In this document: in pieces, positions 747-17,369 of the stretch
How positions within the stretch are numbered: position 1 is the stretch's first letter
Layout of the letters: each line of letters opens with the position of its first letter
IMG/VR virus record: IMGVR_UViG_3300050821_004449
Location: 1 to 27,920 of that record
DNA length: 27,920 bases
DNA from: a virus
Strand: one strand, 5' to 3'
The notes under the pieces: generated by a model
What the model was told of the DNA's origin: nothing
Seen by the model: the letters and a program-made list of their open reading frames with translations, nothing else
Database searches by the model: none
Translations under genes and position numbers: made by a program

Positions 747-1261
747 TAGTAAGTGCCCATGTCGAGACTGATCGAATTGAGCGCATTGTTGCAGACCACC
801 CACTGACTGCTAGTCGGATCTGAGTACCAGATGAATAGCTGGCCAGCAGTGGAGGCCCACCACAATTGCCCGGGATAGGGTGACGACGGCGGAGTGTCGC
901 TCGTGACCAGCGACGGCGGGATCGCAGCGATGTGGTTATCCACATACTGCTTGGTTGAAGCCTCCAACGGAGCGGCTGGGTCAGCGTGGAGGATCAGCGG
1001 CCCAGTCATCGTCGCGCCCGCCAAGGGCGCAAACACGTTCGGGTCGTAGAGGTTCCCGTTGACATAGAATGCGACGGCGTTGAGCGTGCCGTCGCCTTTT
1101 GGGCCACCCGTGGGATTGCCGATCACCATAGCATGCGCGTAGTAGACGGCCGGCCCCTGTATCGTCCAGGGATCCGGCTGCGGCTGCGGCCCGACTTGAG
1201 CCATCAGCGTCGGCTGACCCGTCACGGCCATTGTAGAGGGTCCGGGCGGTTGGCTTGTCAT
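746..1261 (-). CDS. Tail fibre protein with tail-repeat motif
   Basis: This 171-residue protein starts at 1261, where its ATG forms an ATGA overlap with the stop of the upstream gene. A longer reading from 1276 would begin inside that gene and is less likely. Residues 81-108 hold the phage tail-repeat pattern (AGATMTGPLIL, then a Pro/Ala stretch and EASTKQYVD) seen in side-fibre proteins. Residues 121-155 hold a second common fibre motif, DTPPSSPYPGQLWW followed by a Trp-containing SSQWV. The N-terminus is Pro/Gln-rich. It lies between a DQGL-module protein and the collar-domain fibre, so it is probably a fibre shaft or an adaptor. The motifs are seen directly; the exact structural role is inferred. 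Confidence 0.82.
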   Translation of the reverse strand: MTSQPPGPSTMAVTGQPTLMAQVGPQPQPDPWTIQGPAVYYAHAMVIGNPTGGPKGDGTLNAVAFYVNGNLYDPNVFAPLAGATMTGPLILHADPAAPLEASTKQYVDNHIAAIPPSLVTSDTPPSSPYPGQLWWASTAGQLFIWYSDPTSSQWVVCNNALNSISLDMGTY

Positions 1262-1569
1262 GCGGTTGGCCAGCAAACTGCGGTGAACTTGTGCGAGGCG
1301 GAGTTACTCGCAGCAGTCACCGGGGTGAGAGTGTTCGGAATGACGCTGTAGGACTGCCCCGGCTGCAGCGCCAGCGTGGTGCCGTTGGCTGTCGTTTTCG
1401 CCGGGCCGACTTGGTCGACGTACAACACTTCATTGGTCGACAAGCCCTGATCCGTGGCGCTCAGGGGATTGACGATGTAGCCGCCCGCTTGGTTGGCGGG
1501 AATGACGGTGATCGCTGTACCCGGCGTCGACGGGGTCTGGGTGTTAGCGCCCGCGACTGGAGCTGCCAT
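1258..1569 (-). CDS. Small virion protein consisting of the DQGL module
   Basis: This 103-residue protein is made almost entirely of a module that is also present in the gpI-like protein (3376-4515) and in the 465-residue protein (15972-17369). Here it covers residues about 18-100: GGYIVNPLSATDQGL at 29-43, a VLYVDQVGPA strand at 48-57, TTLALQPGQS at 64-73 and SHKFTAVCW at 92-100. The alternating hydrophobic pattern suggests a compact beta fold. A GAGGAG Shine-Dalgarno sequence precedes the ATG. The gene sits among fibre genes, so it may be a free-standing decoration or adaptor version of the module. I know no function for this family. Confidence 0.8.
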   Translation of the reverse strand: MAAPVAGANTQTPSTPGTAITVIPANQAGGYIVNPLSATDQGLSTNEVLYVDQVGPAKTTANGTTLALQPGQSYSVIPNTLTPVTAASNSASHKFTAVCWPTA

Positions 1570-1581
1570 GTCATTTCTCCT

Positions 1582-2106
1582 CTATTTCTTTATCCTGAGG
1601 GGCGGCAAGACACTGCGACCCGCCAGCTGACCGTTGAGATAATCAATCGTCTCATTGTAAGCGGCTATGCCAGCGTCGAAAAAGACCTGGTCGGCCTCCT
1701 CCACCGGCCGGTTCCATGGCGGCATGATCTGTGAGAAATGGTAGCCTTGAGTCGTTCCGGCCGCTAGCAGCTCGGTGTGAATGATTTGACGGTCGGTGCC
1801 CGGAGGTCGAGGCACCATTTCATTCTGCATGTAAGTCCGAATTTCTAGGGTCTGCCGGGTCATTCTCTCGTGGACCGTCTCGGGAGGAGCCACATAAGGG
1901 CCGATTGGTCCATACTCTCCCGCCATCGCTTTGGTCCACACCTCGACCCCGTGCTCCTCGGGATCTTGGGGACTAGCGATGAAGACTCCGGCCTGCCCAT
2001 ACTGCATGCAGTCAAGGGCGATCGGCGAGAGATCGGTGGGTGTTCCCGCCAGCGCCCAGCGCGGGTTGCGCAGGGTCTCAAGCATGTCCTCTGTGGATTT
2101 GAGCAT
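1582..2106 (-). CDS. Hypothetical protein in the tail-fibre cluster
   Basis: This 174-residue protein is not recognised. Its ATG directly follows the TAA of the collagen-like fibre gene with no gap, indicating coupled translation. It is mixed charged and aromatic, with no signal peptide or membrane segment. The C-terminal half contains WNRPVEEADQVFFDAGIAAY (about 131-150) and a helical stretch ending in a basic IKK. The composition is that of a soluble globular protein, unlike the beta-rich Gly/Pro composition of the neighbouring fibres. By position it could be a fibre assembly chaperone or a baseplate-fibre adaptor, but no chaperone motif is visible and the function is left open. Confidence 0.75.
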   Translation of the reverse strand: MLKSTEDMLETLRNPRWALAGTPTDLSPIALDCMQYGQAGVFIASPQDPEEHGVEVWTKAMAGEYGPIGPYVAPPETVHERMTRQTLEIRTYMQNEMVPRPPGTDRQIIHTELLAAGTTQGYHFSQIMPPWNRPVEEADQVFFDAGIAAYNETIDYLNGQLAGRSVLPPLRIKK

Positions 2107-3369
2107 TTATCCGACCCTCTGGTAGAAGTAGTTGGTGATGATCCCGTAGTTGTTGGCGTTCGCGTCCTGGCTGACAGTGCCGAGGAGCAGCCAGTTGCCC
2201 GGGTACCCCGCCGCATTGGGGTTGGTCGGCCCCGGCGTCCACCCGATAGTCATCCACACGCTGCCAAGGCCTCCATAGCCCTGCCAGGCGCCCGCTGGGC
2301 CGGGTGGACCGGCAGGCCCCTGTGACCCTGCGCCCGGAGGTCCGACGGCTCCCTGCGGGCCGATAGGGCCAGCTGGGCCTGGAGGCCCCGCAGGACCGGT
2401 CGGCCCCGCTGGACCGCCAGCGCCGGTCGAGCCCTGAGCGCCCGTCGGCCCTTGAGCGCCGACAGTGCCCGGCCCAACGACAGTAAAGTAGGGTCCGCTA
2501 GCATTGTAGATGAAGATCAACTCGGCGTTGGCGACAATATCGCCGCTGACCATGGCGATGCCGTTGGGCTTGTAGCAGGTCAATGCGCCGAGGCCGTTGA
2601 AGTTCGCTGTCGTCGCGCCCGTGTTGGTGTTCTTGATCCGGACGTTGAATTGCATGCCTTCCGAGTAAGCGCTCGGAGCCGGCGAGCACGCGGCGGAGAT
2701 AGCGTTCGCCACGCCGGTGTCGACGCCAGTGTGGATAACTCGAGATCCGACCAGTGTGGGATAATTGATGAGCTCGTAGTAAGCAGTGGCGCAGTTGGTG
2801 ATCAGGATGCGATCGCCGGGATTGAGCTCGCCACCTTGCAGGGGTTTGTTGCCCATGCTGGTCAGCGGGATCGGAGCCACACCCATGATAATCACGTCGA
2901 CCGGCCCAGTGTTGGCGTAGTTGACTGTGATCAACATCGCCTGGCCGTTGACGGGATTGCCGTTCGGAGGCGGCGATAGAGTGGTAACTACGATGTGGTT
3001 AGGCGACCCGACATCGAACCCGTCATAGACGATCGCCGTGTTGACGCCGACGCCGGTCTGGACGAACGAAGACAGAGTCGCGGCGGTGACCAGATTGCTG
3101 ATCGTGTCGCCCGGGTTCCAGGATTTCGGCTGGGTGCCCTCCTGCCCGCGCACCATGGTGAAAGTGTCGTTGGCGACATTGGTGACGTGGACAATTTCTT
3201 GGATTGTTCCCGTCGCAGCGTCGTAGAAGGTGGCGCAGAAATAATCCCCGGTCTGATTGGGAAACGGGAACTCCATCCCGGTGCCCGCCGCCACATTGAC
3301 TTGGGTATCTGTCGGGCCGATGGAGCCGACGACAGTGGTCGAGGCGTTGTTGGAGAAAAGGACGGTCAT
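2107..3369 (-). CDS. Tail fibre with collagen-like Gly-X-Y repeat
   Basis: This is a 420-residue protein. Residues 1-105 match an N-terminal domain common in phage fibres: an [13 protein letters not shown] start, a TGMEFPFP turn, and an IVHVTNV strand followed by VRGQEGT. The middle is beta-rich. Residues about 304-361 are collagen-like: some 15 uninterrupted Gly-X-Y triplets, a Ser-Gln break, then three or four more triplets. A 59-residue aromatic C-terminal cap ([10 protein letters not shown] onward) follows and may act as the trimer-registering tip. The gene lies just after the gpI-like baseplate gene, where fibres are normally encoded. The collagen repeat implies a trimeric shaft, as known for phage collagen-like fibres. 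Confidence 0.88.
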
Positions 3370-3375
3370 GATGGT

Positions 3376-4515
3376 TTATCCTATGACGACGTTGAAGTTG
3401 AACTGGAATGGCAACTCCAACACCCCAGCGGCGATCGCCTCAGAGAACTGGTTGATGTAGTCGGGACGCTCGTAAGTCACGAAGCTCGTGTAGATATAAT
3501 TGAGTGTCGGCGGTTGACCGCGAGACCACCTCGACGCTCCGTCGGGCGAGCCGCCGATCGTTCCATTGGGGCCGAACCGGTTGGGGAGCGCGCCGCCGAT
3601 CGCCTTGCGATTGATGAGCGGAAACCTGATCGTGCATCCATACCTCGGCCCAAAGGTGATCGAGATGTCTTCAGTCGTGTCGATGGGAGGAGATGATCCA
3701 TTAACCCCGATCAGAAATCTTTTTATCCGACGCTTGAGCCAGCGAACGTTGAAATACTTGCCGTCGCCCTTCATGTAATGCCATGTCAGGCAGCGCTTGT
3801 AGAAATCGTCGTCGGCGATGACAACTCCTTTCGGCTGCTGCTTGACCAGGCGGTCGATGGGAACAAGTTGATTGGGTCCCCAAGTGTTGAGGGCTCCAAG
3901 TACGAACCCGCGCTCGGCGTAGACCCATGGTCTCTTGTAGCCGTAGATCCCTTGAGCCACCCAGTCGAGCAGCGGCCCGGCGATCAGCGGGTTGGTGTAG
4001 ATGGGCAGATTGAGCGCATTGAAGGTGTCAACATAGTTCTGCTGCATGGCGTTCTGACTATCGACAAACGCCTGCAAATCATCGTCGTCTGAATACTCCT
4101 GGTAGAGATATGACGGAATGACTTTGGTCAGACCAGTGACGCCGGATGGCGGGAAGTTCCCCGGCACCGGGGTGGCGCTACCCTTGACGGCGATAGACGA
4201 TGAATAGAAGTAAGAAGCGAACTGGTGGCCTTTGCTGGGCGCGTCGACCCACACATGGACGCCGGGAGGGACTATGAACCGTTGACCCGGCTCCAGCTTG
4301 GTAGTGTGGCCATCCTCCGTCTGCGACGGCGGTTGGACGATGCTGATGAAGAGCGGTTCGGGCTCCGGGAGCCCTTGGTCACTCGCCTCGAATGGGTTGG
4401 TGACGACGCCGCCGAAATTGGGCAAGCCGACGGGCATCAGCTGGGTAGCGAACCCAGGATGAATGATGGTGTCGGTTAACCCGCCGACAACTTGATAGTT
4501 CGGGTAAAGCGGCAT
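3376..4515 (-). CDS. gpI-like baseplate/tail protein with N-terminal DQGL module
   Basis: This 379-residue protein begins with a DQGL module (about 22-104): GGVVTNPFEASDQGL at 35-49, TTKLEPGQRF at 71-80 and GHQFASYFY at 96-104. The remainder looks like the phage tail protein I type: after PSYLYQEYSDDDDLQAFVDS (about 135-154), which resembles the N-terminus of many gpI proteins, comes a helical region and a segment with many aromatics and basics (KRCLTWHYMKGDGKYFNVRW, about 239-258). It directly follows baseplate J with a one-base TGATG overlap, the usual J-I order. The gpI role is supported by order and general pattern rather than by a diagnostic motif. The module at its N-terminus is unusual. 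Confidence 0.78.
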   Translation of the reverse strand: MPLYPNYQVVGGLTDTIIHPGFATQLMPVGLPNFGGVVTNPFEASDQGLPEPEPLFISIVQPPSQTEDGHTTKLEPGQRFIVPPGVHVWVDAPSKGHQFASYFYSSSIAVKGSATPVPGNFPPSGVTGLTKVIPSYLYQEYSDDDDLQAFVDSQNAMQQNYVDTFNALNLPIYTNPLIAGPLLDWVAQGIYGYKRPWVYAERGFVLGALNTWGPNQLVPIDRLVKQQPKGVVIADDDFYKRCLTWHYMKGDGKYFNVRWLKRRIKRFLIGVNGSSPPIDTTEDISITFGPRYGCTIRFPLINRKAIGGALPNRFGPNGTIGGSPDGASRWSRGQPPTLNYIYTSFVTYERPDYINQFSEAIAAGVLELPFQFNFNVVIG

Positions 4516-5981
4516 CAGAAGCCGCCCTCGCTGAACACGATCTGAGACAAGTCAGTCAAGAAGTAACTGTTCGGGTCTCCATAGATGACGCCAGTGCCGG
4601 TTGATGGCGAGACGGGCATCCCGTCGATGCTGACCTGGAAATCCAACACCGTGATGGCCTCGGAAGCGACAGTGCTCGCGGTCGCCTGAAGGAAGATCGA
4701 AGTCATGTCGTAGATGTTGATCGGAGCCGTTCCCACGGCCAGGGAATTGATGTAATCTCGCAGGGCCGGTCCCGCTAGCGCCGCGATTGCGCTGGGCGAC
4801 ACGTAATTGGGCGAGTCTGTTTGCCACACCACTTCGATGAACACCGCCTCCATCGGCGGCAGGACATAAGGGATGATGTAGGTGTCGGGCCAGTCGACAA
4901 TCGAGACTTCCTCGACGATCGGGTTGGGCGTCACATGGCCGCCTGAAGTGTAGGTCGACCCGGCGATAGCAGTGTTGAACGGAATAGTGAATTGGTTGAG
5001 GGACGGCTGACCGCCGATCGTCGGAACTGTGACGGGGAACGACTTGCCGTTGAGCGTCGGAAACACGCCAGTACCGTGGATGTCGTAGAGCGTCTCGACC
5101 ATCCCAGTGACGAGATTGTGGTTCTGCGCCGTCGTCACTACGGCCGGGTTGCCTGAAGAGATGTTGGTGATGTCAATCGGAGCCGGCAGCAATCCGCCAG
5201 TCCAGAACAACGCCTTCCAGATCGCATAAGCGACTTGGTAGGGGTCTCCGCCTCCACAGATGGCGATGTACCGGCCGCTGACCAAATCCTGCCGGGCGCT
5301 GACCAACCGGGCCTGGACGCCGGGCACGTTCGCCAGCAACGTCTTCATGTACCTCGACATGCCGGTCGATGACGCCAGCCCAGCGGTGAACACGCGATCG
5401 CGGTAGTCACTGATCGCTTCACCCGACGTCGCCGGAATGCCGTCGGTCGGGTTGGTGACAGTGACGAGGTCGATCACACTGGCGGGAAGCGACGACGCCA
5501 GCAGAGTGACGGAGCCGGCGGGGACCGCCCAAGTGCCGGGCACGACAGCCACACAATAGATGGGCAACGACTGGCCGTTGGTTCCGATGATGCCGCCGTC
5601 TTGGACGACGTACTGATAGGAGCCGTCGCCAACCAAGAACCCCTCGACAATCACCAATCCGGGCGGTCCGTAGAAAACCACGTAGACAGTGACGTTGGTA
5701 GCGACTTGGGGCCGGAGGCCGTAGAGAATGCCCTGTTGCTGGAGGATGAAAGCATTGGCTCCGTTGGGCGACACGGAGTTGACCAGGTCGACCAAGAAAG
5801 AGTCGCTTTGCACGCAGGCAGCCACATCGGTCGAAGCAACATCCTCGACCAAGGAGCCCGGCAAGTTGTCAGTGTAGTCTTGGTTAGTGGCTGCGACTGC
5901 CGCCACCAACTGAGACCGCAAGTTGGCCGGGGCCTGCGGCTGCAAGCCCTGGGCGGTCATGATGAGAGGGAGCACAGCCAT
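4515..5981 (-). CDS. Baseplate J-like wedge protein
   Basis: This 488-residue protein shows the Baseplate_J pattern. A beta-rich central part (about 120-165) is followed by VTNPTDGIPATSGEAISDYR (about 174-193) and DRV, which corresponds to the conserved glycine-acid-acid-R-x-R-V region of J/gp6 proteins. A compact beta domain appears to be inserted at about 270-355 (VVTTAQNHNLVTG, then LNGKSFPVTV, then FTIPF). The J-like C-terminal part resumes at about 357 and contains the segment ALRDYINSLAVGTAPINIYD (406-425). It follows the gp25-like gene with a TGATG overlap and precedes the gpI-like gene, which is the canonical baseplate order. It builds the inner wedge ring of a contractile baseplate. 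Confidence 0.92.
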   Translation of the reverse strand: MAVLPLIMTAQGLQPQAPANLRSQLVAAVAATNQDYTDNLPGSLVEDVASTDVAACVQSDSFLVDLVNSVSPNGANAFILQQQGILYGLRPQVATNVTVYVVFYGPPGLVIVEGFLVGDGSYQYVVQDGGIIGTNGQSLPIYCVAVVPGTWAVPAGSVTLLASSLPASVIDLVTVTNPTDGIPATSGEAISDYRDRVFTAGLASSTGMSRYMKTLLANVPGVQARLVSARQDLVSGRYIAICGGGDPYQVAYAIWKALFWTGGLLPAPIDITNISSGNPAVVTTAQNHNLVTGMVETLYDIHGTGVFPTLNGKSFPVTVPTIGGQPSLNQFTIPFNTAIAGSTYTSGGHVTPNPIVEEVSIVDWPDTYIIPYVLPPMEAVFIEVVWQTDSPNYVSPSAIAALAGPALRDYINSLAVGTAPINIYDMTSIFLQATASTVASEAITVLDFQVSIDGMPVSPSTGTGVIYGDPNSYFLTDLSQIVFSEGGF

Positions 5982-6349
5982 CAGATCGGAACCACAGTTT
6001 CTAGGGTCGAGCCGTAATTGGTGATGATGGTTATCGCGTAGTATGGCGCGGGCCGCCCGGCTTCATCCGTAACATCATCCATCTTTTGCAGCATCAGTGT
6101 CATGAAGTACGGCGCGAACCGTTGCTGCATCAGCGCCATGTAGAGATCTGGGTGGATCTGAGTGACGATCGACGTGTAGGCCGGAATACCCCAGTCAGCC
6201 CAGAAAGGCGACTCCCCAAGGTTCAACTTTAAGCACTGGGCCAGCGTTGTCAGCATGACCATGTCTTGGAACCCGTTTGGGTCGGTCGTCACTGTGACCC
6301 ACGTCTTTTTGCCCGTAAGGACGTCCTGGGTTCGTCCGTAAGTGCGCAT
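5981..6349 (-). CDS. gp25-like baseplate wedge protein
   Basis: This 122-residue protein has the size of the gp25/W family and its location directly before baseplate J. Residues about 36-60 contain the diagnostic-looking LKLNLGESPFWADWGIPAY run (40-58), similar to the NxxGE(R)-type core of W/gp25 proteins. The C-terminus forms a beta hairpin (YYAITIITNYGSTLETVV). A purine-rich AAGGGA lies upstream of the ATG. In known baseplates this protein bridges the sheath-like fold and the wedge. The assignment rests on length, motif and gene order. Confidence 0.8.
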   Translation of the reverse strand: MRTYGRTQDVLTGKKTWVTVTTDPNGFQDMVMLTTLAQCLKLNLGESPFWADWGIPAYTSIVTQIHPDLYMALMQQRFAPYFMTLMLQKMDDVTDEAGRPAPYYAITIITNYGSTLETVVPI

Positions 6350-6500
6350 AGGTGCCGTGTCCCTTCACTGTCTCCACTACCCGCTGCTTCCGCTGGGATG
6401 GACGGATGTTCTCGACATACCGCACGAAAGGCGGATGCGTTGTCGCTCGCATAGATTTCTGCGCCGCCAGTCCCGTGTGTGGGCAAGCTGTGAGTCTCAT
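6195..6500 (-). CDS. Doubtful small overlapping ORF between spike and gp25-like genes
   Basis: A 101-codon frame starts at an ATG that forms an ATGA overlap with the spike stop, the same junction style used by real genes here. Only its first half (6350-6500) lies outside the gp25-like gene; the second half overlaps it in another frame. The N-terminal half is basic with two Cys residues, and the C-terminal half has a shadow-like composition (RPKRVPRHGH). Without it, about 147 bases would be non-coding in an otherwise gapless operon. It may be real, it may be a short leader that couples translation to the gp25-like gene, or it may be chance. Confidence 0.3.
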   Translation of the reverse strand: MRLTACPHTGLAAQKSMRATTHPPFVRYVENIRPSQRKQRVVETVKGHGTYAHLRTNPGRPYGQKDVGHSDDRPKRVPRHGHADNAGPVLKVEPWGVAFLG

Positions 6501-7306
6501 CCGATCCTCGCCTGAACGTTCTTACTCGGCCCCGCTATCGTCACTACGGGAGCGTAGGTTCCCTCTTTCCCATCGCCGCCGAGATACGCGATGTCGCTGA
6601 GGGGCACATTGAGCGCGATCTTGTTGCTGTCCTGGTCGACAATGACCTGGTGCTTGCCGTCCGGGCTCTGGTGGGTAATCACGCCTTTGCTGTCGATTTG
6701 CATAAAGGCCTTTGGCGTGCTCTGGGTGGCCTGTAGGGCCGGTCGGGGCGCTCGCCTGAGCCATTGCGCCCGTGCGCGAGAACTCATGCCCAGCAGGCGT
6801 CTTTGGCGAGCCTGCGCTGATCCGCCCGCTGGTGGCTGTGTTCCTGGCGGTGGCTGCGTTTTGGCTTGCTGCGAGTTCTGAATGATCTTGACGCCATTCG
6901 GCCCGCCGGTCATCGTGTACTGATCGTAGTCACGAGTTTCGTTCTGGGTCAGGCTGAACGCCTGGAAGGAGAGCGGGGTCAGGTTCCCTTTGGGGTAGAA
7001 GTTGGTGTAGCTGCCGCCCAGCCCAGTCAAGGTCTGCGTGTTATACTCGCTCGGGACGGCCCAGCCCAGGTCGCCCACTTGGGTCGGCTCGCGGCCGTAG
7101 CGCGAGAATGATTGTGGGATCTGCTGCTGGGGTAATGTTTGGATGCCGTTCTGCGGCTCAAAGCTGACGGTGACGAAGTCCTTGTTGACCTTCGTGACCT
7201 TGACCGGGATCGCCTTCGCCTGAGCCTGGCGGAAGTTGTCAGATCGCCGGTCAGCGGCCGTAATCAGCGAGAGATTAAACGGAGTCTTGAGAGCGTTGTC
7301 AGTCAT
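6497..7306 (-). CDS. Baseplate spike / gpV-Gp138-like protein
   Basis: This 269-residue protein lies between a baseplate plug candidate and the gp25-like gene, the usual spike position. Residues 31-86 form an OB-fold-like segment (IPVKVTKVNKDFVTVSFEPQ, then a GDLGWAVPS strand), as in gpV/gp5/Gp138 N-terminal domains. The C-terminal part (about 201-250) has short repeated strands (MQIDSKGVITHQSPDG, VIVDQDSNKIALNV), typical of spike beta-helices. Between them is a Pro/Gln/Ala linker and an Arg-rich stretch (167-188) that is not typical of spikes. It starts with an ATGA overlap. Membrane piercing is the expected role; no lysozyme domain is visible. Confidence 0.8.
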   Translation of the reverse strand: MTDNALKTPFNLSLITAADRRSDNFRQAQAKAIPVKVTKVNKDFVTVSFEPQNGIQTLPQQQIPQSFSRYGREPTQVGDLGWAVPSEYNTQTLTGLGGSYTNFYPKGNLTPLSFQAFSLTQNETRDYDQYTMTGGPNGVKIIQNSQQAKTQPPPGTQPPAGGSAQARQRRLLGMSSRARAQWLRRAPRPALQATQSTPKAFMQIDSKGVITHQSPDGKHQVIVDQDSNKIALNVPLSDIAYLGGDGKEGTYAPVVTIAGPSKNVQARIG

Positions 7307-7791
7307 GGGTTCGTCTCAAACTGCCCATCGCGGAAGATCAAGGTCGAGTATTGGAAGTAACCCTCGACCAAGTTGTTGTATCGGGATGCATGGCCCAGCA
7401 CAGTGATGACCCCGGGATCGGGGCTCGGGAATGTGAACCGCTGGTCGAATAGCGTCAAGCATTCATGGAGGCCGTTGATGGACGCCGGGGAGAAACCCTC
7501 GAGCGTGTAATTGACGACCTGGCCCGGAGACCGATACATCGGCGATTGCATCTTACCAATCAGCACACCTTGGCTCGGGTCATAGACCATCGATACCATA
7601 GATTGACCCTGAGATGTCTCGACCAATGGAACAGTGCAAATCCAGATGCCGTCGAGAGTGTACAGGTTGATGAAGTACCGCTGCGACGCCACGTTCCAAG
7701 TGATGACCATTGTAGTGTCTTGATAGTCGAGCGTAACCGTGAGGCGCGGCGCTCGAGTATTCGATGGCCGGAAGGGAACGTAGGTGGTCAC
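7303..7791 (-). CDS. Probable baseplate plug-type protein
   Basis: This 162-residue, beta-rich protein starts with GTG at 7791, directly after the upstream TGA and 7 bases from a GGAGG sequence. Residues 1-75 (YVPFRP, then VTLDYQDTTMVITWNVASQR and YFINLYTLDGIWICTVPLVE) resemble the small baseplate plug/DUF6983-type proteins found between hub and spike genes in compact contractile baseplates. That family pattern is a strand with a Trp, then a D-x-x-G turn and a PLV strand. It overlaps the spike gene by ATGA. The family match is recalled from the pattern and not verified, so hub-spike adaptor is the safest reading. Confidence 0.65.
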   Translation of the reverse strand: MTTYVPFRPSNTRAPRLTVTLDYQDTTMVITWNVASQRYFINLYTLDGIWICTVPLVETSQGQSMVSMVYDPSQGVLIGKMQSPMYRSPGQVVNYTLEGFSPASINGLHECLTLFDQRFTFPSPDPGVITVLGHASRYNNLVEGYFQYSTLIFRDGQFETNP

Positions 7792-8619: not shown

Positions 8620-10145
8620 ACCGCGTACCTCCGCACTGGGCGGCGGAGTATCGGCGACGGCGGAAACTCGCCAGTGGGCGGCGGCGATGCGCCAGGAGCT
8701 CCAGTCAATGGATTGGGCAGACTGACTATGCTGTTCGCCAGCATGGCCGAATTCGTCACCAAGCCGGTGCATTGCAGCGACCAAGACGATCCGTCCGGGT
8801 GACGACTGTCTCCGATTATAGTCACCTGGTTGAGAGTCACCGGCTGGTTGGCGAAGTTGACATTCAATGACTTGACCATCCCCGGAGCGATCTCCAGCGA
8901 CGGAGCCACAGTCTCTAGCGTGTCGGGCGGCAGCGTCACCGTCAGGGGCGGGTAGATGTCGGCGCGCATCGGCGTGCGAAATGTGATGGTGTTGGTCTGG
9001 AGCCAAGTTGGCTGACCAATCAACTCCTCGAACTTCAATGTCGGGCCCTGATGAATTCCATTGATCGGATTGCCATCAGTGACGATGATGCGTTGACATC
9101 GGACGAAGGTTTGAATGCCCTGATACGTGTCGGACCCGGGCGAGTTCTTACCTGCAGCGCCGAGAGCGCCGGCTAAGGACTGCAGGGTCGAGTTCCCGGA
9201 CCCCTGAGCCATTGCGCCGACGAGCGACGACATAGTGCCGGCCGCGCCCTGCGTGCCGCTCATCAGCGACAGACTAGTCTGCTTGGCGAAAGCAGCGAAC
9301 TGCTCGAGCGAGTTGTAGAAGCCACTGTCCTTGGCTCCCGGGTTCTTCAGCAAGTCGGCGATGCCGATGTCGATAGTGCACCACGGGAAAGCTTTGGTCA
9401 GGGTCTGTCGCAGCGCGTTGCTGAGCATGTCGCCCGGCTGCCAATTATGGATAATGTTGGCAGGTGTGGAACCCCACCCAGTGCCGGTCGCGAACGACGA
9501 AGCAATGGCGGAGATCGCGCTGCCGATGTCGCCTCCGGCGATACTTCCCAAGATGCCGCCCACACCACCGCCATCGCCGTCGAGCGGCGTCGTGGCGACG
9601 CGTCGCCGGCCCGGAGTGGGTCGCAGATATCCGACCCCGCGCTGCCGGTTTCGCAGGCGCATCGGCGAGGGAGAGAACGAACTGTCGGAACTCGCCGGTG
9701 CGCTGCTGCCGGTGCCGTCTGCTCCGCCTTTGGCGTCATTGCCAGCGCTCAGCAGCATGTCGAGGGTCATATCCTCATCTTGCCAATTGCCGAAGGCCTG
9801 CCAAATCTTGCCGCAGTAGATCGCGCCCGCGTAAGGCGCTTCCTCGGTGGCCAGCGGCAGCCCGGGCCAGAACCCGGCGTAGACTTCGATATTCAGGCCG
9901 TTGAGATTTGAGGCCTGCTTGAGCATCTCGATGTCTACACCATAGAGGCGCACGAATGAGTTGGGATTGACTGTCGCCAGACTGACCATCTCAATCCGGA
10001 GCATACAGCGCAGCGCGCCGGGATCGTTCTGCAGCCCATAGCCGACATCAGCCACACTGCTGAACTGCGCGCCAGCGACGGGAGCGCCGGGCACCGGCGG
10101 GAACACCGAGGGCGCCCCATCAATCTTGATGGCGTAATATCTCAC
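8616..10145 (-). CDS. Baseplate hub protein
   Basis: This 509-residue protein starts at GTG 10145, overlapping the tape-measure stop as GTGA. The N-terminal domain (1-130; LRCMLRIEMVSLATVNPNSF, NGLNIEVYAGFWPGLPLA, AIYCGKIWQAFGNWQDED) has the strand pattern of hub proteins (Mu gp44, gpD and gp27 types). Residues 140-205 are a low-complexity insert with Ser/Pro, then Arg-rich and Gly-rich parts. Later regions include TLTKAFPWCTIDIGIADLL (249-267) and a beta-rich C-terminal domain with NQPVTLNQVTIIGDSRHPDG. The last residues are basic (LRRPVRRYAV). The hub connects the tube and tape measure to the spike. The assignment comes from order and pattern. Confidence 0.78.
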   Translation of the reverse strand: MRYYAIKIDGAPSVFPPVPGAPVAGAQFSSVADVGYGLQNDPGALRCMLRIEMVSLATVNPNSFVRLYGVDIEMLKQASNLNGLNIEVYAGFWPGLPLATEEAPYAGAIYCGKIWQAFGNWQDEDMTLDMLLSAGNDAKGGADGTGSSAPASSDSSFSPSPMRLRNRQRGVGYLRPTPGRRRVATTPLDGDGGGVGGILGSIAGGDIGSAISAIASSFATGTGWGSTPANIIHNWQPGDMLSNALRQTLTKAFPWCTIDIGIADLLKNPGAKDSGFYNSLEQFAAFAKQTSLSLMSGTQGAAGTMSSLVGAMAQGSGNSTLQSLAGALGAAGKNSPGSDTYQGIQTFVRCQRIIVTDGNPINGIHQGPTLKFEELIGQPTWLQTNTITFRTPMRADIYPPLTVTLPPDTLETVAPSLEIAPGMVKSLNVNFANQPVTLNQVTIIGDSRHPDGSSWSLQCTGLVTNSAMLANSIVSLPNPLTGAPGASPPPTGEFPPSPILRRPVRRYAV

Positions 10146-12946
10146 GAGCTAGCCATCACAGTTGAGGCTGCGATGTTCACGTCGCTGCCGGTTCGATTGT
10201 GGATATTCACGTTGTGGATAGGCTTCTGTTGCCAATTGTCGTTGTCGAGACCGTTGGTCCCTCCCTGCTTCTTGCCGCCCGCTCCGGCGATGCCGAAGTA
10301 GTTCTCGGCTCCATGCTCGCCGAACCCGCCGATCCCATAGTGCTGGATGTGTGGGCCTTGGACCTGGCCTCGACGGCCGCTGTACTTGTACTGCTCGACC
10401 ACGTTGATGCCGGTGATCTTGCCACTCTGATCGCGCGTGTACCCGCCGAACAGCGCCGCATGGCTGGTGCCCGCGCCCGGGGTGCCAATGCCGCCCGCGT
10501 CGTATCGCTCGCTCTGTTGTCCGCTCGAGCTCATGAAAGTAGCGATCGGCGTGCCCACCTTCATGTTGCCGCTGAGCACATTCTGACCCTTGCGCCAGTC
10601 CCGGACGGTGCCGCCCATTCCGGTGAACTCGCGCACCAGGGTGACACACTGCTCGTTGGACAGATGCGGGTGAGTCTTCTTGACCTCGGCCAAGAGGGCG
10701 TTGGCGTCGGCGGCGTTGCCGCCTCCGGGCCCTCTGATCTCGCTGGTGCTGTTGGGCGTCGCGTTGGCCATAGCGCCCGCAGCGCCACCACCTTGACCGC
10801 CGAACTGCTCGTTGAGTTCGCCCAGTGTCTTGTGAGTGTCGAACGCGCCGAACTGCGCGTGCAGCATCCGCTGGGTGCGACCGCCGAATTGGTTGGCCGG
10901 GATTTGAGCAGCGACTTGCGCCTGCACGTCGCGAGGGGCGCTCATCGGTGTGGGATACTTGGTCAAGTCGACGCCGGCCTTCGCGGCATACTTCCGCCAA
11001 GTCGGGTCGATGATCTGGAAGTAGCCGCTCGCTGGGGTGCCCTTGTCGGTGTTCACATCGTGGATGCCCTGCACGATGTTGCGGTTGCTGCTCTCGATGT
11101 TGGACACGGCGTCGAGGAATGACCCGCTGCCGCCGCCCCCTGGGCCGCCCGCTGACGACGTTCGGCTGTGCGGGCCAGAACCGCCCGCGCCCTGCGGTCC
11201 ACCGGCTCCACCGCCCGTCCCAGGGCCAAGGGCTGCCCCTCCGGGTCCGGTGCCGCCGCCACCGCCCACACCCATCTTGTTGAGCCAGGCGTTGAAGTCC
11301 TCGAGAGTTCGGTTGAGTTTGTCCTGCTTCTCGGCCTCGGTCATGAAATAGTTGTCGAGGTTGCCCATCAAGCGCTGGGTGCTTTCGTCGCGATCCGCCG
11401 CCGCTCGCGCTGCGGCTTTGGTCGACTGCTGCTCCTGGACGAACCAACCCTTGAACCACTCCATGTACTGACCGCCGCCGAGCATACCGCTCGCACCCAT
11501 CAGTTCCTGCTGCGGCTTGTCCCCGGTGCCGCTCGCTGCATCCTTGCTCGAGAAACTGAAGCCGAAATTCTTCTGCTTCCACCAAGGCACTGATTGGATC
11601 TTGGGATCGGTAGTTGCCTGTACTGCTTCGCCGGGGTTGGGGAAATTGGCGCTCGACCCATCGGGGTTGATCTTGGCCCCGTACCTGTCGTAGCCCAGTC
11701 GAAGATTGCGGTCTTTGTCGTCCTGGGTCATCGGGCCGAAATGAGTGGAGCCGATACCCTCTTTCTCCAGACCCTGGACAGCGCCGGGCACCGCGCCCAA
11801 TACGGCTCCCACACCTTTGCCAATCGGACTACGGGCCACTAAGCCGATGATACGCGCAATGGTGTCGACAAAGGTGGCGAGAATTTCCGCGGCCTTGCCG
11901 AGCTTTTCCATGAACCGATTGAAGCTCTCCTGACCCTCCGTAGTTTGAAGCCAGTCGGCCCACTTCTGGATCTCATCGCCAAAATGCTTGATAGTGTTCC
12001 TGACGCCTTCAGTCTCCATGAACGCCGTGAAGGCTTTGGTCAGCGCCGTGCTCAGATCCGTCAGCGGCCTAGCGAGCGGCGCTAGCCGGTTGATTAGAAC
12101 ATCCTGGATGACTGACTTGGACGACTCCAGCGTGATCTGGAAGGTAGCCCACTTCTTGTTGGCCTCTTCCGCCGCGATCGCTGCGTCGCCGGCTGCTTTG
12201 ATGGCCTTGCGCCTGACTTCGATTTCTTCCTTGTCGAGCGCCATCCAAGTGCGGATGGCCTCGGGGCCGAGCAGGTCGTTGAGGCCGCTCGTGGCCGCGA
12301 TAGTGCCGCGGATTTTCTCGTCGAACTGGCCAAGATATTTCGTCGCCTTCTCGAGCGCATCCGCCATCGCCAGCGGGTCAGTGCGCGACAGCTGGCGATT
12401 GGTGTCCTGGCCGAACAGTGTTTGCGCGCCGCGGAATGCGCCCGAGGTCGGGTCCCACCGCGCCGTGCCCCACCCGGAGATCGCCGCGCCAGCGCCCGGG
12501 AATGACCCGGCGTTCATGCCGCGGAACTGGCCGTACCCCACACCTGCCCCGAGGGCTTTGGCGCGGTCGCCAACGACGCTGTTGACGAGCGATGTCAAAC
12601 CCCACAAACCACCTCCGCCCAGCCCCAGCAGGGCCAGGGTCGAACCCACGGCGGTCTTCCAGCTAACCAGGCCTTTGGTGATGGACTCTACATTGGTCCG
12701 GATCGCCGTCGAATGCTTCGACGTCTCGGCGAACTGCTGGGTGAATTTTTGGAGGGAGGCGGTGGAGCGCGCAACGGGCGCTGCCATGTTGGTCATCACG
12801 GCTGAGGCCGCCTTGACCTCAGTCGTGATCTTTGACCAAGTCGCCAGTGTGTCCTGGAGTGTCTTGGCGTATTGATTAAATGAGGTCTGGAACTTGTCGA
12901 AGTCGGTAGACGCGACATCGACCCTCAGGACAGCCGTGTCAGCCAT
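10142..12946 (-). CDS. Tail tape measure protein with two putative peptidoglycan-degrading domains
   Basis: This is the longest gene (934 residues). The N-terminal 350 residues are helical with heptad-like repeats. A hydrophobic Gly-rich segment lies at 96-125 and a second at about 350-390. Gly-rich linkers (about 555-605) lead to a lytic-transglycosylase-like domain (about 611-700; NIESSNRN with candidate catalytic Glu618, then SGYFQIIDPTWRKYA). A BPSL0067/NlpC-P60-like cysteine-amidase domain follows (about 755-900; EQCVTLVREFTG with Cys767, a GTPIATF strand, SHAALFGGY with His829, then INVVEQY). A GAAGG sequence precedes the ATG. The protein sets tail length and probably opens the cell wall at injection. 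The domain calls are motif-based. Confidence 0.9.
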   Translation of the reverse strand: MADTAVLRVDVASTDFDKFQTSFNQYAKTLQDTLATWSKITTEVKAASAVMTNMAAPVARSTASLQKFTQQFAETSKHSTAIRTNVESITKGLVSWKTAVGSTLALLGLGGGGLWGLTSLVNSVVGDRAKALGAGVGYGQFRGMNAGSFPGAGAAISGWGTARWDPTSGAFRGAQTLFGQDTNRQLSRTDPLAMADALEKATKYLGQFDEKIRGTIAATSGLNDLLGPEAIRTWMALDKEEIEVRRKAIKAAGDAAIAAEEANKKWATFQITLESSKSVIQDVLINRLAPLARPLTDLSTALTKAFTAFMETEGVRNTIKHFGDEIQKWADWLQTTEGQESFNRFMEKLGKAAEILATFVDTIARIIGLVARSPIGKGVGAVLGAVPGAVQGLEKEGIGSTHFGPMTQDDKDRNLRLGYDRYGAKINPDGSSANFPNPGEAVQATTDPKIQSVPWWKQKNFGFSFSSKDAASGTGDKPQQELMGASGMLGGGQYMEWFKGWFVQEQQSTKAAARAAADRDESTQRLMGNLDNYFMTEAEKQDKLNRTLEDFNAWLNKMGVGGGGGTGPGGAALGPGTGGGAGGPQGAGGSGPHSRTSSAGGPGGGGSGSFLDAVSNIESSNRNIVQGIHDVNTDKGTPASGYFQIIDPTWRKYAAKAGVDLTKYPTPMSAPRDVQAQVAAQIPANQFGGRTQRMLHAQFGAFDTHKTLGELNEQFGGQGGGAAGAMANATPNSTSEIRGPGGGNAADANALLAEVKKTHPHLSNEQCVTLVREFTGMGGTVRDWRKGQNVLSGNMKVGTPIATFMSSSGQQSERYDAGGIGTPGAGTSHAALFGGYTRDQSGKITGINVVEQYKYSGRRGQVQGPHIQHYGIGGFGEHGAENYFGIAGAGGKKQGGTNGLDNDNWQQKPIHNVNIHNRTGSDVNIAASTVMASS

Positions 12947-13310
12947 TGGTCGCCTTCAACAGTTGCAGAAAATACCTATTCCGCCATTCCGCAGCGGTTG
13001 TAAATCCTAAGCTGCTGTCTGGGGCCATAAACTGGCCCATGAACTCTTTGAAAGCGACCTCAGTGACCCAGCTCAGGCAGGAACCGACAACCGTTGCTTC
13101 TCCGGTGACGGGGTCGCAGCTGTCGCGCCAGTATTCTCTTCCGGCGTCGAGGTCGGCAAGGAATTCATAAACTCCATAACAGTCGAGGATGTAATTTGCG
13201 CTTGCCAGAGTGTGCGGAGGCTGTCCATCGCTATTGCCTCGCTGGGAAGTTTGATCCAGGAGGCGCAGGTAAAATATAACAAGAAGTTCTCCGCTTCGTC
13301 TCCTTGCTCC
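12939..13310 (-). CDS. -1 frame extension of the tail assembly chaperone (probable programmed frameshift)
   Basis: This frame is open for 123 codons from just after an in-frame TGA (13311-13313) to a TGA at 12939-12941, which overlaps the tape-measure start (ATGGCTGA). It contains no ATG, GTG or TTG, so it cannot easily be translated alone. From about 13196 its translation looks like a real protein (NYILDCYGVYEFLADLDAGR, then EYWRDSCDPVTG and later AAEWRNRYFLQLLKATNG), while the zero frame there becomes Thr/Pro/Ala-rich and stops at 13073. Tail assembly chaperones of many phages are made as a short form and a -1 frameshifted long form, encoded just before the tape measure. A slip near 13180-13210 would give roughly 240 residues. 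I see no textbook slippery heptamer. Confidence 0.7.
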   Translation of the reverse strand, partial: GARRRSGELLVIFYLRLLDQTSQRGNSDGQPPHTLASANYILDCYGVYEFLADLDAGREYWRDSCDPVTGEATVVGSCLSWVTEVAFKEFMGQFMAPDSSLGFTTAAEWRNRYFLQLLKATNG

Positions 13311-13666
13311 TCAGTTAGGATCCCGCGCTTGACCGACTCGACGAAGGGCATGTTGGCCCAGCCGGTGTCTCCGGGATAGACGACAAACGACAGCCGCTTG
13401 ACCTCGTTGACCAGCATCTCGCTATGGGCTTCGTCGCCGAAACTCTTGGCTTCGTCGCGGAACACGTAGCCCGCTAGCGAAGGACCCGTGATCGGCCCAT
13501 AACCCAGCCGTTGGATCTCAGTGAATGTGCGGCCGAGCATCCGATAGTGCTCGCGGAACACGGGCAGCGAAATCGGAGATGAGTAAACGTGAACCAAGCC
13601 CTTGTCAGTCATGAATGGCGGCAAGACAACATTGAGCTTTCGGTTCAGCTTGATAACTTCAGCCAT
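13073..13666 (-). CDS. Tail assembly chaperone, short (zero-frame) form
   Basis: This 197-residue protein lies between the tube gene and the tape measure, where the tail assembly chaperone normally sits. A very strong Shine-Dalgarno sequence (AAGGGAGGT) precedes its ATG at 13666. Residues 1-160 are globular and mixed alpha/beta (KLNVVLPPFMTDKGLVHVYS at 10-29; helical SEAIAMDSLRTLWQAQ). Residues 168-197 are Thr/Pro/Ala-rich and look like the dispensable tail of a pre-frameshift form. A second reading frame takes over inside its 3' end (see 12939-13310). In known phages this chaperone coats the tape measure during tail assembly and is absent from the virion. Confidence 0.75.
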   Translation of the reverse strand: MAEVIKLNRKLNVVLPPFMTDKGLVHVYSSPISLPVFREHYRMLGRTFTEIQRLGYGPITGPSLAGYVFRDEAKSFGDEAHSEMLVNEVKRLSFVVYPGDTGWANMPFVESVKRGILTEEQGDEAENFLLYFTCASWIKLPSEAIAMDSLRTLWQAQITSSTVMEFMNSLPTSTPEENTGATAATPSPEKQRLSVPA

Positions 13667-13688
13667 AGTACCTCCCTTTTCTTACCTC

Positions 13689-14153
13689 CTACGGGTCTCC
13701 AAAGAACCCTTGGTTGACCTGCATGTACCCGCGCATGGTGAACACGATCACTGGCTCGGTGCCGGCGAAGTTCATCTCGCGCACTGTCTCCAGCGCCATG
13801 TTCATCAGATTGAACGGCTGCAAGACGTCGGGCGTCACGTCCGGGTAGACAGTGACGTTACCGATGATCGTCGACCCTTTCTGCATCAGCTGCATGAGTT
13901 GGTTGGCTAGCGCCGCAGCCGACTTGACGATAGCCATTGTCAGGGTGCAACTCTGATACGGGGCGGGCGAGCTCACCATCCCGGTCATCGTGGGCAGCAG
14001 GTCAGTGGCGTTGCTGTCGAGCGCTAGCCTGATGCCCTCAGTGCCCAGATAAGAAGACGTGATCGTGAGCGGTTGCCCATTCGACTGGATTGTCGCAAAA
14101 ACCACCTGGGCGCTTAGGCGGTTCAGGACGCCTTGATTGACGAACGCTGTCAT
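13689..14153 (-). CDS. Tail tube protein
   Basis: This 154-residue protein immediately follows the sheath and precedes the tail chaperone, the canonical tube position in contractile phages. It is beta-rich, with a central helix (VKSAAALANQLMQLMQKGST, 76-95) flanked by strands (IIGNVTVYPD; EPVIVFTMRGYMQVNQG), compatible with the tube/Hcp-like fold. It starts with ATG behind a GAGGAG Shine-Dalgarno sequence. The length is typical of tube proteins in this type of phage. The assignment is mainly from order, size and secondary-structure pattern. Confidence 0.8.
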   Translation of the reverse strand: MTAFVNQGVLNRLSAQVVFATIQSNGQPLTITSSYLGTEGIRLALDSNATDLLPTMTGMVSSPAPYQSCTLTMAIVKSAAALANQLMQLMQKGSTIIGNVTVYPDVTPDVLQPFNLMNMALETVREMNFAGTEPVIVFTMRGYMQVNQGFFGDP

Positions 14154-14179
14154 TTTCCCGTCTCCTCATACGGCTCGCG

Positions 14180-15808
14180 TCAGATGGTGACCAGGTTAGT
14201 TGCCGTGACGCTGACCAGGATATGGATGAAGCCGCGAGCCGGAATGAACAGCACTGACAACCCGTCGTATTCGCCAATCTTGAAGTGCCCCGGATTAGCA
14301 TTGACGTAGTCGACGAACTGCACCGCATTCACGTCGCACATGCCCTCGAAGACGCCGAGCAAGATCTGGTTCTGCAGATCCGGCTGGTTCAGCCCGGTCA
14401 TGGTAATCGGCCCCAGCACCATGCCCAGCGTCGAAGCCGAGAGCATGGTGTTGTAGAGGTTGGTTTCCAGGAAGTTGATGCCGTCCTGGTTGTAGTAGAG
14501 CGGCGCGAACGGGTTGTTGCTCCCGTTGATGATGGCGTTCGACAGGTTCAGATTGATGTTGATCTGGACCCAGTCGATGGTCCACCACCAGTTGAAGTAG
14601 TCATTCCCATCCCGAGTGACGCCCTCGTAGACGATGTTGTAGGAAATGCCGCCCTCCGCGCCGGTAGCCACATAGTTAGTGGAATTGGTCTTGAAGGACT
14701 TGAGCAGCGGCCCGTTGTTCTTGGTCGGGTAGGCGGTGACCCCATAGAGGTACTTGAACGCCATCGGCGCGACCCGGTTGATCTGCGACGGGCGGAATGC
14801 CATGGCGTTGTAGAACATCGCCGCCATCGTGAATTCGCCATTCGGATTGGTCGCGTTCGACCCCTGAAGGTCAGTGACCGAGGGCGCTTCAACCATTTGG
14901 ATGACGCACTTGTAAGTTTCGTCGAGGACGGTGATGACATTGGGAGACACCGTCAGCCAGAAGTAGGTCATCGCCTCCGGGTTCTGGTATTGCTTGAACA
15001 GCGGCTCGAACGCTTGGATCGTGGTTTGGTTGTTGCCGCAAGCCCTGGGCAATAGATAGCCGCAGAAGACCTTGGGATTGACATTGAGCCACCCCTGCAG
15101 CGCCGCCGCGTTGTCAGTGATGGTGGCTCCGTATCCGAGTTCGAGCACCCACACTGAGGTCATGTTGCCCTGGTCGAAATACGTCGTCGCCATCTGCGAC
15201 AACTCAATCGCGCCCTGAGGCATGTAAGTCCCGACCGTCGTTGTCGGGCCCGGGTCGACGACGCACGGATAGGTGAAGGTCGCGGTGTCGACAATGGTGA
15301 CTGGGCCAGTGTAGTTGTATTGTGTGGGAACAAACCCGCTGACCGTCATCATCGGCAAGTCCCCGGGCGCGTAAGCGGGCACGAGGGGAGATGCCGTTGT
15401 CAGAGTGACGACGCCGGCTGCCCATGTCACGCTGGCTGCAGGCTGAGCGCCGAGGAGAACGTCGGTGAGATCGCTCCATTGGGTCAACTCGGCCGCATCG
15501 TTTCGAGCGATGCTGGTGGCTCCAAATGACACCAGGCACCCCGTCTGCTGGAAGGTGTTGGGCGTCGGAGCCTGGATCGTCTGAACCTTGACGGTGACGA
15601 TAGAGTTGGGGTCTTCCGAGAATTGCGTAACCGGAATATCCCTCACACCCACTGTCGGCGGAGCCAGCGCGGGGTCCACATAGCCCTTCGCCTTGATATT
15701 CAAGCCGTCGGGCAACACACGACGGCTCGGGCCCTGCGGGTGCCGCCACGCGCGCCGGATGGCCGCTCGGCGGTCGCCGTGAGAGAACGGCATGAAAGCG
15801 TTGACCAT
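14180..15808 (-). CDS. Contractile tail sheath protein (DUF3383-like)
   Basis: This 542-residue protein carries an AAGGAG Shine-Dalgarno sequence 8 bases before its ATG. The N-terminus is basic, followed by the first sheath-like strands (NSIVTVKVQTIQ; TGCLVSFGATSIARNDAAEL). Residues 121-196 look like an inserted beta domain (AAGVVTLTTAS, then DTATFTYPCVV). The main sheath core resumes with MTSVWVLELGYGATITDNAA and ends with IDWVQININLNLSNAIINGS, DGINFLETNLYNTMLSA and a C-terminal beta strand (GFIHILVSVTATNLVTI) that would provide inter-subunit handshake strands. The pattern resembles DUF3383-family sheaths. It is followed by the tube gene. Confidence 0.85.
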   Translation of the reverse strand: MVNAFMPFSHGDRRAAIRRAWRHPQGPSRRVLPDGLNIKAKGYVDPALAPPTVGVRDIPVTQFSEDPNSIVTVKVQTIQAPTPNTFQQTGCLVSFGATSIARNDAAELTQWSDLTDVLLGAQPAASVTWAAGVVTLTTASPLVPAYAPGDLPMMTVSGFVPTQYNYTGPVTIVDTATFTYPCVVDPGPTTTVGTYMPQGAIELSQMATTYFDQGNMTSVWVLELGYGATITDNAAALQGWLNVNPKVFCGYLLPRACGNNQTTIQAFEPLFKQYQNPEAMTYFWLTVSPNVITVLDETYKCVIQMVEAPSVTDLQGSNATNPNGEFTMAAMFYNAMAFRPSQINRVAPMAFKYLYGVTAYPTKNNGPLLKSFKTNSTNYVATGAEGGISYNIVYEGVTRDGNDYFNWWWTIDWVQININLNLSNAIINGSNNPFAPLYYNQDGINFLETNLYNTMLSASTLGMVLGPITMTGLNQPDLQNQILLGVFEGMCDVNAVQFVDYVNANPGHFKIGEYDGLSVLFIPARGFIHILVSVTATNLVTI

Positions 15809-15820
15809 CAGGATGTCTCC

Positions 15821-16009
15821 TTACTTCTTGGACTTGCCGTTGTTGTGGGCCTTCGCTGCCGCCGCCGCTGGCTGCTGCGCCGGATAAGACTCATTCGGTG
15901 TCGCAGTGGGCGGCAGCACAGTCGAGACGGTTACTCCGCCCGGCTTCTGAGCCGGAGCCAGGATGGGGTAGCTAGCCCGGAACAGCGGCAGATAAGTTGT
16001 CTGGGGCAT
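15821..16009 (-). CDS. Small Pro/Ala-rich basic-tailed protein
   Basis: This 62-residue protein starts inside the 3' end of the 465-residue gene (38-base overlap) with a clear AGGAG Shine-Dalgarno sequence 6 bases before its ATG. That makes it a real gene despite its size. The N-terminal third is hydrophobic and aromatic (MPQTTYLPLFRASYPIL); the rest is Pro/Thr/Ala-rich and ends in a basic NNGKSKK. No membrane helix or known motif is seen. It lies immediately before the sheath gene. It could be a minor neck or tail peptide; the function is unknown. Confidence 0.6.
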   Translation of the reverse strand: MPQTTYLPLFRASYPILAPAQKPGGVTVSTVLPPTATPNESYPAQQPAAAAAKAHNNGKSKK

Positions 16010-17369
16010 TTATCACTCCTGCAAGCTCTGGGAGCCCTGGGTAGAAATTGCACTTGGCTTTGAGGATGTATTGCCTCGCCACGTCGCGACTAACTGACTG
16101 GAGGTAGTTGACCTCAAAGGTGATCGACTTACGCTGGGCGATGACCTGCAGCTCCGATTGAACCTGGTTCGCGTCCGTGATGGCCCCAGTCGTGGCGATC
16201 CCGATTGCATTCCAATCCTTCGAATACTGCTCGACGAACTCCCGGAAGTCGGAAGCCAGCCGGTTGCTCGCGCCGTACATGTGAATGACGACCCGGTCTC
16301 GACAGAGTTGGTCGGCTTCCATGCGCTGACCCAGGACTGGGAACGGCATCAGCGCTTCTGTGCGCTCGACGTGAACCGAGCCGAATGGGAGTGGCGTGTT
16401 GCCGTCGACCAAGAACGCCGGATAGAGTTGAAATGGGCAAGTGAGCCCGCCCGGGTACGGAGGCTCATAGTAGTTCATGAACATCCAGATCGGGATGGAG
16501 TTGCTGTTGAAGACCTCCGGCTCGAATGTTTCTACGTCATCGACAACCTGTGTCGCCGTGGTGCTGTAGATCGCTCTGCCGACATAGTGGTAGAGATCGG
16601 CCTGCTCGTAGAGATAACCGCGTGAGGAGAATGCGAAGCGGATATCACGATAAGAGCCGATGTAGAGAAAGTCCGGCCCGATCTGATTGAACGGCTGGAT
16701 CTCGCTGAGCGATGTAAAGACCACGGTGCTGGTGTCGACTGTGGCGTCAGCCCGCTGCTCGGTCATGCTGTCGTAATGGAACGACCCTTGGACTTTGACA
16801 TCAGTGGGTAGGCTCACTGTCGGCGCGGTCTCGTGCAACACCACACTGAAGTGATGACCTCCGGTGAGCGCATTGACCCAGGCCGGTGTGGCTCCAGGAA
16901 TTTCCATGCTCTCGCCCGGCGCAAGCTCAGTCGTCGTCGCCGTCTCACTGCACGAGGCGGGTCCGGTGAAGTCAACGAAGATGCTCTCCGCTGGCGTCGA
17001 GGTCGGATAGTCAAGGAGGCCCGGTATCAGTGGCTCGACATAGAGAGAGGTGAGACCCTGGTCAGCCACACTGAGCGGATTAGTGATGAGGCCGCCGACG
17101 ACCCTATTCCCACGCGGCGCAACCTGAATGGCCTCGCCCGACACTTTCGTCTTGGTGGCCAGTCCCGCCCTCAGCTTGAGGCCGGCGGTGGTCACTGTCC
17201 CTTGAGCCGACGGCACCCGCAGCCAGTAGTTCATGCCATCAAGCGGGTTGACATACCGCTGATAGAGGGCGAACGCGATGGTCTGGTTAGCCGACAGATC
17301 CTTGACTGCCGCCGCGAGATCTGCCGCCAGCGGTGGCTTGGCGTTGAGGGCGTCGGCTACCGTAGGCAT
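15972..17369 (-). CDS. Neck/tail virion protein with DQGL module
   Basis: This 465-residue protein is encoded two genes before the sheath. Residues about 79-178 carry the DQGL module: VGGLITNPLSVADQGL at 91-106, IFVDFTGPASC at 130-140, TTTELAPGES at 145-154 and GGHHFSVVLHE at 170-180. About 20 residues are inserted between the DQGL and IFVDF elements compared with the other two copies. The C-terminal half (DRVVIHMYGASNRLASDFRE at about 357-376, then ITFEVNYLQSVSRDVARQYI) resembles neck or tail-terminator proteins placed before the sheath in comparable phages, but I cannot confirm this. The start overlaps the upstream gene by 13 bases and has no clear Shine-Dalgarno sequence, so coupled translation is likely. 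Confidence 0.75.
   Translation of the reverse strand: MPTVADALNAKPPLAADLAAAVKDLSANQTIAFALYQRYVNPLDGMNYWLRVPSAQGTVTTAGLKLRAGLATKTKVSGEAIQVAPRGNRVVGGLITNPLSVADQGLTSLYVEPLIPGLLDYPTSTPAESIFVDFTGPASCSETATTTELAPGESMEIPGATPAWVNALTGGHHFSVVLHETAPTVSLPTDVKVQGSFHYDSMTEQRADATVDTSTVVFTSLSEIQPFNQIGPDFLYIGSYRDIRFAFSSRGYLYEQADLYHYVGRAIYSTTATQVVDDVETFEPEVFNSNSIPIWMFMNYYEPPYPGGLTCPFQLYPAFLVDGNTPLPFGSVHVERTEALMPFPVLGQRMEADQLCRDRVVIHMYGASNRLASDFREFVEQYSKDWNAIGIATTGAITDANQVQSELQVIAQRKSITFEVNYLQSVSRDVARQYILKAKCNFYPGLPELAGVINAPDNLSAAVPG
16016..16020 (-). promoter_or_regulatory. Shine-Dalgarno AGGAG for the 62-residue protein
   Basis: AGGAG lies 6 bases upstream of the ATG at 16007-16009, within the coding region of the 465-residue gene. 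It decides the start of the small downstream gene and argues that this gene is translated. Confidence 0.75.

Follow-up and report, generated by a model that had tools for sequence, protein, structure and literature searches.

A predicted jelly-roll module shared by neck, baseplate and fibre-region proteins of a contractile-tailed phage, and its possible role in fibre docking

Fibres and spikes are held at both ends of the phage tail in described systems: in XM1, six collar spike trimers (gp40) touch the terminator gp5 (PMC10457771), and in Pa193 the tail-fibre attachment loop is borne by the wedge protein gp46 (PMC11042391). These contacts, as described, are not made through a shared inserted jelly-roll module. 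Among domains repeated across virion proteins, the known cases are mainly Ig-like folds, such as those of Hoc and the lambda tail tube (Fraser et al. 2006, reviewed in PMC9022992), and the purpose of the repetition is unsettled. Here we describe a module that occurs in three proteins encoded in a 27,920-base viral sequence (IMG/VR record IMGVR_UViG_3300050821_004449, positions 1 to 27,920; hereafter the window), a structural gene cluster of a contractile-tailed phage. The three are a 103-residue protein of the fibre region (p103), a 379-residue gpI-like wedge protein (p379) and a 465-residue neck protein (p465). An earlier note, made from the sequence alone, had placed their open reading frames at 1258-1569, 3376-4515 and 15972-17369, and there we found them, all on the minus strand, as are all features of the window given below with a range in dots.

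The similarity of the three segments is not due to chance, since their pairwise Smith-Waterman local scores (135, 123 and 136) lie far above the best of 1000 shuffles for each pair (59, 63 and 64) and since separate profiles of free, wedge and neck relatives match one another (hhalign probability 99.5-99.9; E values of 2.6e-27, 6.7e-23 and 8.1e-31). The alignment proposed in the earlier note is thus borne out by shuffling and by context-specific profiles alike, and the conserved elements follow the same order in all three copies, as it had described. When aligned with MAFFT, the fused copies are 35-36% identical to p103, with 20 invariant columns, and a profile of the three copies recovers exactly three places in the window (E 3e-48 to 3e-54, these being self-matches) and no fourth. 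Near-invariant residues are G29, G30, N34, P35, E47, P70, G71, H93 and F95 in p103 numbering. The DQGL core that the note took to mark the module is common but not invariant in the wider family (D in 84-90%, Q in 88-97%, G in 77-86%, L often replaced by I). Its borders for the module were too short at the N-terminal side: the module spans residues 1-102 of p103, which is a free-standing copy making up the whole protein (1258..1569), residues 1-105 at the N-terminus of p379 (4201..4515) and about residues 56-186 inside p465 (16812..17204). An insertion put at roughly 20 residues is indeed present in p465 as 18 residues after DQGL (residues 109-126; 16992..17045), but it is limited to the closest neck relatives of the window, most neck copies lacking it, and is the lowest-confidence part of the module in the p465 model.

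The module is predicted to be a small beta jelly roll that is nearest to cupins, without their metal motif. The AlphaFold model of p103, built with 108 aligned copies, is all beta but for one short turn (pLDDT 93.1, pTM 0.82), and in the model of p465 (pLDDT 82) the module strands are ordered as in p103; by this measure the predicted folds of these two do not differ, and the p379 copy is linked to them by sequence profile. Against the PDB, the p103 model matched mostly cupins of the RmlC-like superfamily (2fqp, 6b8w) and a de novo designed double-stranded beta-helix (6e5c), plus the endospore appendage subunit 7a02, with E values of at least 0.013 and TM-scores of about 0.4-0.55 for an all-beta fold of about 100 residues. 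The wedge copies also carry a G-x5-P-x-G stretch resembling cupin motif 2. The module differs from cupins, however, in that the family lacks the metal-binding set of HxH...E in motif 1 and His in motif 2, having one invariant His (H93) and no HxH, and in that cupin Pfam models scored at best 18.4 bits in the window against a cut-off of 22 (Cupin_1), staying below the cut-off wherever one was printed. No Pfam model of any kind reached its cut-off on the module, there was no Ig-type Pfam match and no Ig fold stood among the 50 best PDB matches listed. Likewise, no PHROG covers the module, the weak matches to phrog_22789 having a best E of 3.8e-4, in 9/26 members, and an E of 0.014 for p103 itself. 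Coronavirus proteases and ribosomal proteins, which came up in profile searches of the PDB, were set aside as chance matches.

Closer structural matches were found among predicted viral structures (A0A6J5SRN5, E 2.5e-5, TM 0.76), the top ones being uncharacterised. These small phage proteins (BFVD A0A6J5SRN5 and A0A6J5SZ37, and tf_60/tf_61 of Pseudomonas phage tf), of 87-162 residues, have a similar predicted fold (TMq 0.50-0.76), but no fused copies of them are known, and tf_61, which scores 0.9 bits with the sequence profile of the module, was rejected as a sequence relative, its likeness being one of fold only. In phage tf (locus L253, 34452-34999), tf_60 and tf_61 are tandem small paralogues near a tail-fibre gene; tf_61 (87 residues) fits the size of BFVD I2FLT0, which has a p103-like fold, and the two are possibly an analogous free-standing jelly-roll pair.

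Comparison with relatives marks the module as an add-on that is dispensable for the core proteins, because relatives have a neck loop of 4-49 residues in its place and a wedge protein without the N-terminal copy. In named phages (Klebsiella Chronis, Yersinia YenM phages, Pantoea PdC23, Escherichia Rac-SA53, Shewanella QDWS and others), matches to p379 begin at residue 100 at the earliest and those to p465 at residue 185 at the earliest; some wedge homologues begin just where the module ends. In the neck protein of Shewanella QDWS, the two strands that flank a stretch of about 130 residues in p465 are joined by a loop of just a few, and module-lacking neck homologues in IMG/VR have 16-49 residues at that point. 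An insert this large within a loop is therefore probably an independently folding unit whose ends lie close together. We sampled 61 distinct neck proteins from at least 412 loci, and the module is present in 22 of them and absent from 39; only the best 80 matches were kept, so the sample is skewed to close relatives. Module-lacking neck homologues (in loci L183-L222, for example L202 2998-3993) often bear another insert of about 36 residues (SALxNASxYNxxxYN) at the same loop, which is thus a general insertion site. As with the Ig-like accessory domains of phages, the module is present on several virion proteins, absent from homologues, and found fused, inserted or separate; it differs from them in its cupin-like predicted fold and in three fixed contexts as against their promiscuous placement.

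The proteins that carry the fused copies are probably equivalent in position to those that hold fibres and spikes in XM1 and Pa193. In p379, a Gly/Pro-rich linker (about residues 106-124) ties the module to a gpI-like wedge core (residues 125-379; 3379..4143) that matches phrog_8212 over residues 130-376 (E 1.1e-50), a relative being annotated DUF2612. Directly upstream lies the gene for a gpJ-like baseplate wedge (4515..5981; phrog_6 baseplate wedge subunit, E 4.6e-23), and downstream p379 is directly followed by a fibre with collagen-like repeats (2107..3369) and then, in order, by p174, a short protein of the tail-fibre region (1582..2106; phrog_1795 / phrog_1141), then p103 and then p176, a second fibre gene (746..1261). 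This wedge-then-fibre order, also that of Pa193, points to p379 as the fibre-bearing wedge subunit, and the place of p103 within the fibre cassette to its being a virion protein. The core of p465 consists of an N-terminal part (residues 1-55; 17205..17369), delimited by alignment with relatives, and a C-terminal part (residues 187-443; 16041..16811) that matches phrog_6359 from residue 186 (E 9.2e-67) and has a predicted tail-terminator-like fold. Sequence searches gave no match of the p465 core to known terminators or neck proteins, and its best Foldseek matches were mostly phage neck and terminator proteins (phiTE, Pam3, Sf14, XM1 and lambda gpU; E 0.002-0.03, probability 0.85-1.00). The gene sits between the head-completion genes and the sheath gene (14180-15808, phrog_205), which comes after it, the same order as in Rac-SA53. 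The matches to phrog_8212 and phrog_6359 both leave the module uncovered. A single module in neck, baseplate and fibre-region genes that belongs to no named domain, as the earlier note had it, is supported.

The free copy is coupled to one kind of fibre. In 43 of the 54 loci with room for it, the free module is directly followed by a gene for a fibre whose N-terminus, of about 80 residues, is conserved, with overlapping starts in 23; in the window, p103 and p176 overlap by ATGA at 1258-1261. In p176, the conserved segment (PW..G....SGGVVVG.PTGG.KG.GT.NA...YVNG; 983..1234) is the candidate partner of p103. Conversely, all 45 matches to this N-terminus adjoin a free module. Such adjacency is partly expected, because most loci had been retrieved by way of the module; the control is given by the 15 module-lacking loci, which cover about 6-12 kb past the wedge gene and in which no such N-terminus was found, and its consensus had no match at E <=1e-3 in 50,697 phage records. 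The connection between p103 and the fibre N-terminus is thus one of genetic linkage. In four loci (L013 3841-10442, L317 1475-6601, L319 3309-7558 and L320 3701-7810), three or four successive fibre genes follow the free module and have short repeated segments in common.

Pattern and tblastn scans seeded with the copies of the window yielded 133 distinct copies in IMG/VR: 59 at wedge N-termini, 51 as free genes of about 103 residues and 23 as neck inserts. No fourth context was found among them or in whole-record searches of 72 related records, bar two matches at E of about 0.001-0.004 (G055, G065), although an unrelated context might escape scans seeded with known copies. Among cultured phages and plasmids, tblastn with p103 gave no match, and pattern scans for the free and neck types in bacterial genomes, which were not exhaustive, confirmed no relative. 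Burkholderia Lessievirus tail fibres, which gave weak consensus matches, were rejected as relatives, since all that they share is a TT-x-LQPGQ stretch, set in another fibre N-domain. Records fall into those with no copy, those with wedge and free copies and those with wedge, free and neck copies. In records found through the neck gene, a free copy was present in 5/5 whose wedge protein bears the module and whose sequence runs far enough downstream, versus 0/15 whose wedge protein is bare (Fisher p 6e-5, uncorrected for kinship). This is the better test because choosing records by the neck gene favours neither of the other copies; in loci collected by way of the module, wedge and free copies occur together in 30/30, but a Fisher test on these is confounded by the way in which they were collected.

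A tree of 109 copies (only 105 columns, root unplaced) groups the copies of each context, so that they track context rather than genome, as far as the sequences tell: there is a single starred clade of neck copies, a weakly supported branch (42) has all free copies to one side, and two changes are required for the wedge copies, with no sign of homogenisation within genomes. The neck insertion is the most restricted context, and in the simplest reading the wedge and free copies came first and the neck copy later. Some residues are specific to context, W85 being kept in 80% of wedge copies and all neck copies and absent from free copies, W100 being kept in 93% of free copies, which suggests a division of labour between fused and free copies.

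Taken together, we favour the reading that the module is a fibre-docking or fibre-hub domain serving both tail ends, to which we would give a probability of roughly 45%, because the module stands on two tail proteins that hold fibres or spikes elsewhere and its separate copy goes with a fibre that has a dedicated N-terminus. The module would be an accessory domain that folds on its own, cupin-like in topology but with no metal site. The fibre-bearing wedge protein may have gained it as an N-terminal fusion, the fibre cassette also making it as a separate small protein, and it may later have been inserted into an outward loop, presumably exposed, of the terminator-like neck protein. p103 would then bind the fibre encoded by the next gene at its N-terminus and join it to the virion via the fused module on the wedge protein, and the neck copy would be an equivalent fibre site at the other end of the tail. 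The suggestion in the earlier note of a common attachment unit or shared partner thereby gains indirect support, from the fibre-bearing positions known in XM1 and Pa193 and from the free copy beside a fibre gene. Its other suggestions, glycan binding and decoration, gain no support from the results and are not contradicted by them.

Several observations weigh against this reading. In 11 of the 54 loci the free gene is not followed by the conserved fibre N-terminus, and the co-occurrence counts take no account of shared ancestry. The Foldseek matches of the neck core are weak, at best E 0.002. The p379 core had no sequence match to solved wedge proteins, so that gene order and the neighbouring wedge-subunit gene are the grounds for equating it with Pa193 gp46. 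Finally, the context-specific Trp residues mean that the interacting faces may differ.

The rival that survives best, which we consider rather unlikely, is that the module is an accessory adhesion domain, exposed on the virion and weakly binding a glycan or host-surface component, its spread over neck, baseplate and fibre region raising avidity. Its dispensability and its presence on several virion proteins would fit, as would the precedent of phage Ig-like domains (PMC9022992), the weak Pfam and PDB resemblance to sugar-related cupins (lyxose and mannose-6-phosphate isomerases) and the shared polar invariants N34, E47 and H93, which could line a ligand site. However, the cupin matches are all under the cut-off, and the copies have diverged into groups of their own by context even within one genome, where a common ligand alone would permit exchange; this reading also leaves unexplained why the free gene is linked to one fibre N-terminus. 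That linkage also goes unexplained if the copies are structural cement, binding each other in hetero-oligomer rings that stabilise baseplate and neck, with no binding of fibre or host. We regard this as clearly improbable: the co-occurrence of wedge and free copies would fit it, and small jelly rolls can self-assemble, one PDB match being the endospore appendage subunit (7a02, E 0.028), but this match is no better than the cupin ones and the neck copy, distant from the others along the tail, would need a partner of its own. Neutral spread by duplication and recombination, with no common function, would suit an add-on absent from most relatives but is very improbable for a module long kept in the same three places, with invariant residues, across highly diverged phages.

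Elsewhere in the window, three genes on the minus strand drew attention. A 343-residue protein (22528-23559) begins with a NUDIX domain (PF00293, E 1e-21) and has towards its C-terminus a DUF2213-like segment that falls just short of the cut-off, an apparent NUDIX hydrolase-DUF2213 fusion inside a phage structural cluster. An 87-residue LuxR-type helix-turn-helix protein (GerE, E 1.5e-10; 19577-19840) is encoded within the structural operon, directly after the gene for a 340-residue protein (19843-20865). A probable tape-measure protein of 934 residues (10142-12946) had no Pfam match at E 0.01, and its C-terminal third resembles a lytic transglycosylase/CHAP region by eye.

Accessory domains on virion proteins are already a known kind; new here are a different predicted fold, absent from Pfam and uncovered by PHROG, and three fixed contexts, and full-text searches of the open-licence literature found no published account of the module. 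Returning to fibre docking, the stronger proposal, that this is a new domain family acting as the standard fibre socket at both ends of the contractile tail, with a free hub and a dedicated fibre N-terminus while the fused wedge and terminator copies mount the same fibre system, is one that we advance tentatively and hold to be doubtful. If true, it would explain how one fibre type is mounted at two places and would make the module a portable attachment domain. If the module is instead an adhesin, the class of accessory domains would gain a second fold. A natural set for comparison is offered by related phages that have the same core proteins but zero, two or three copies.

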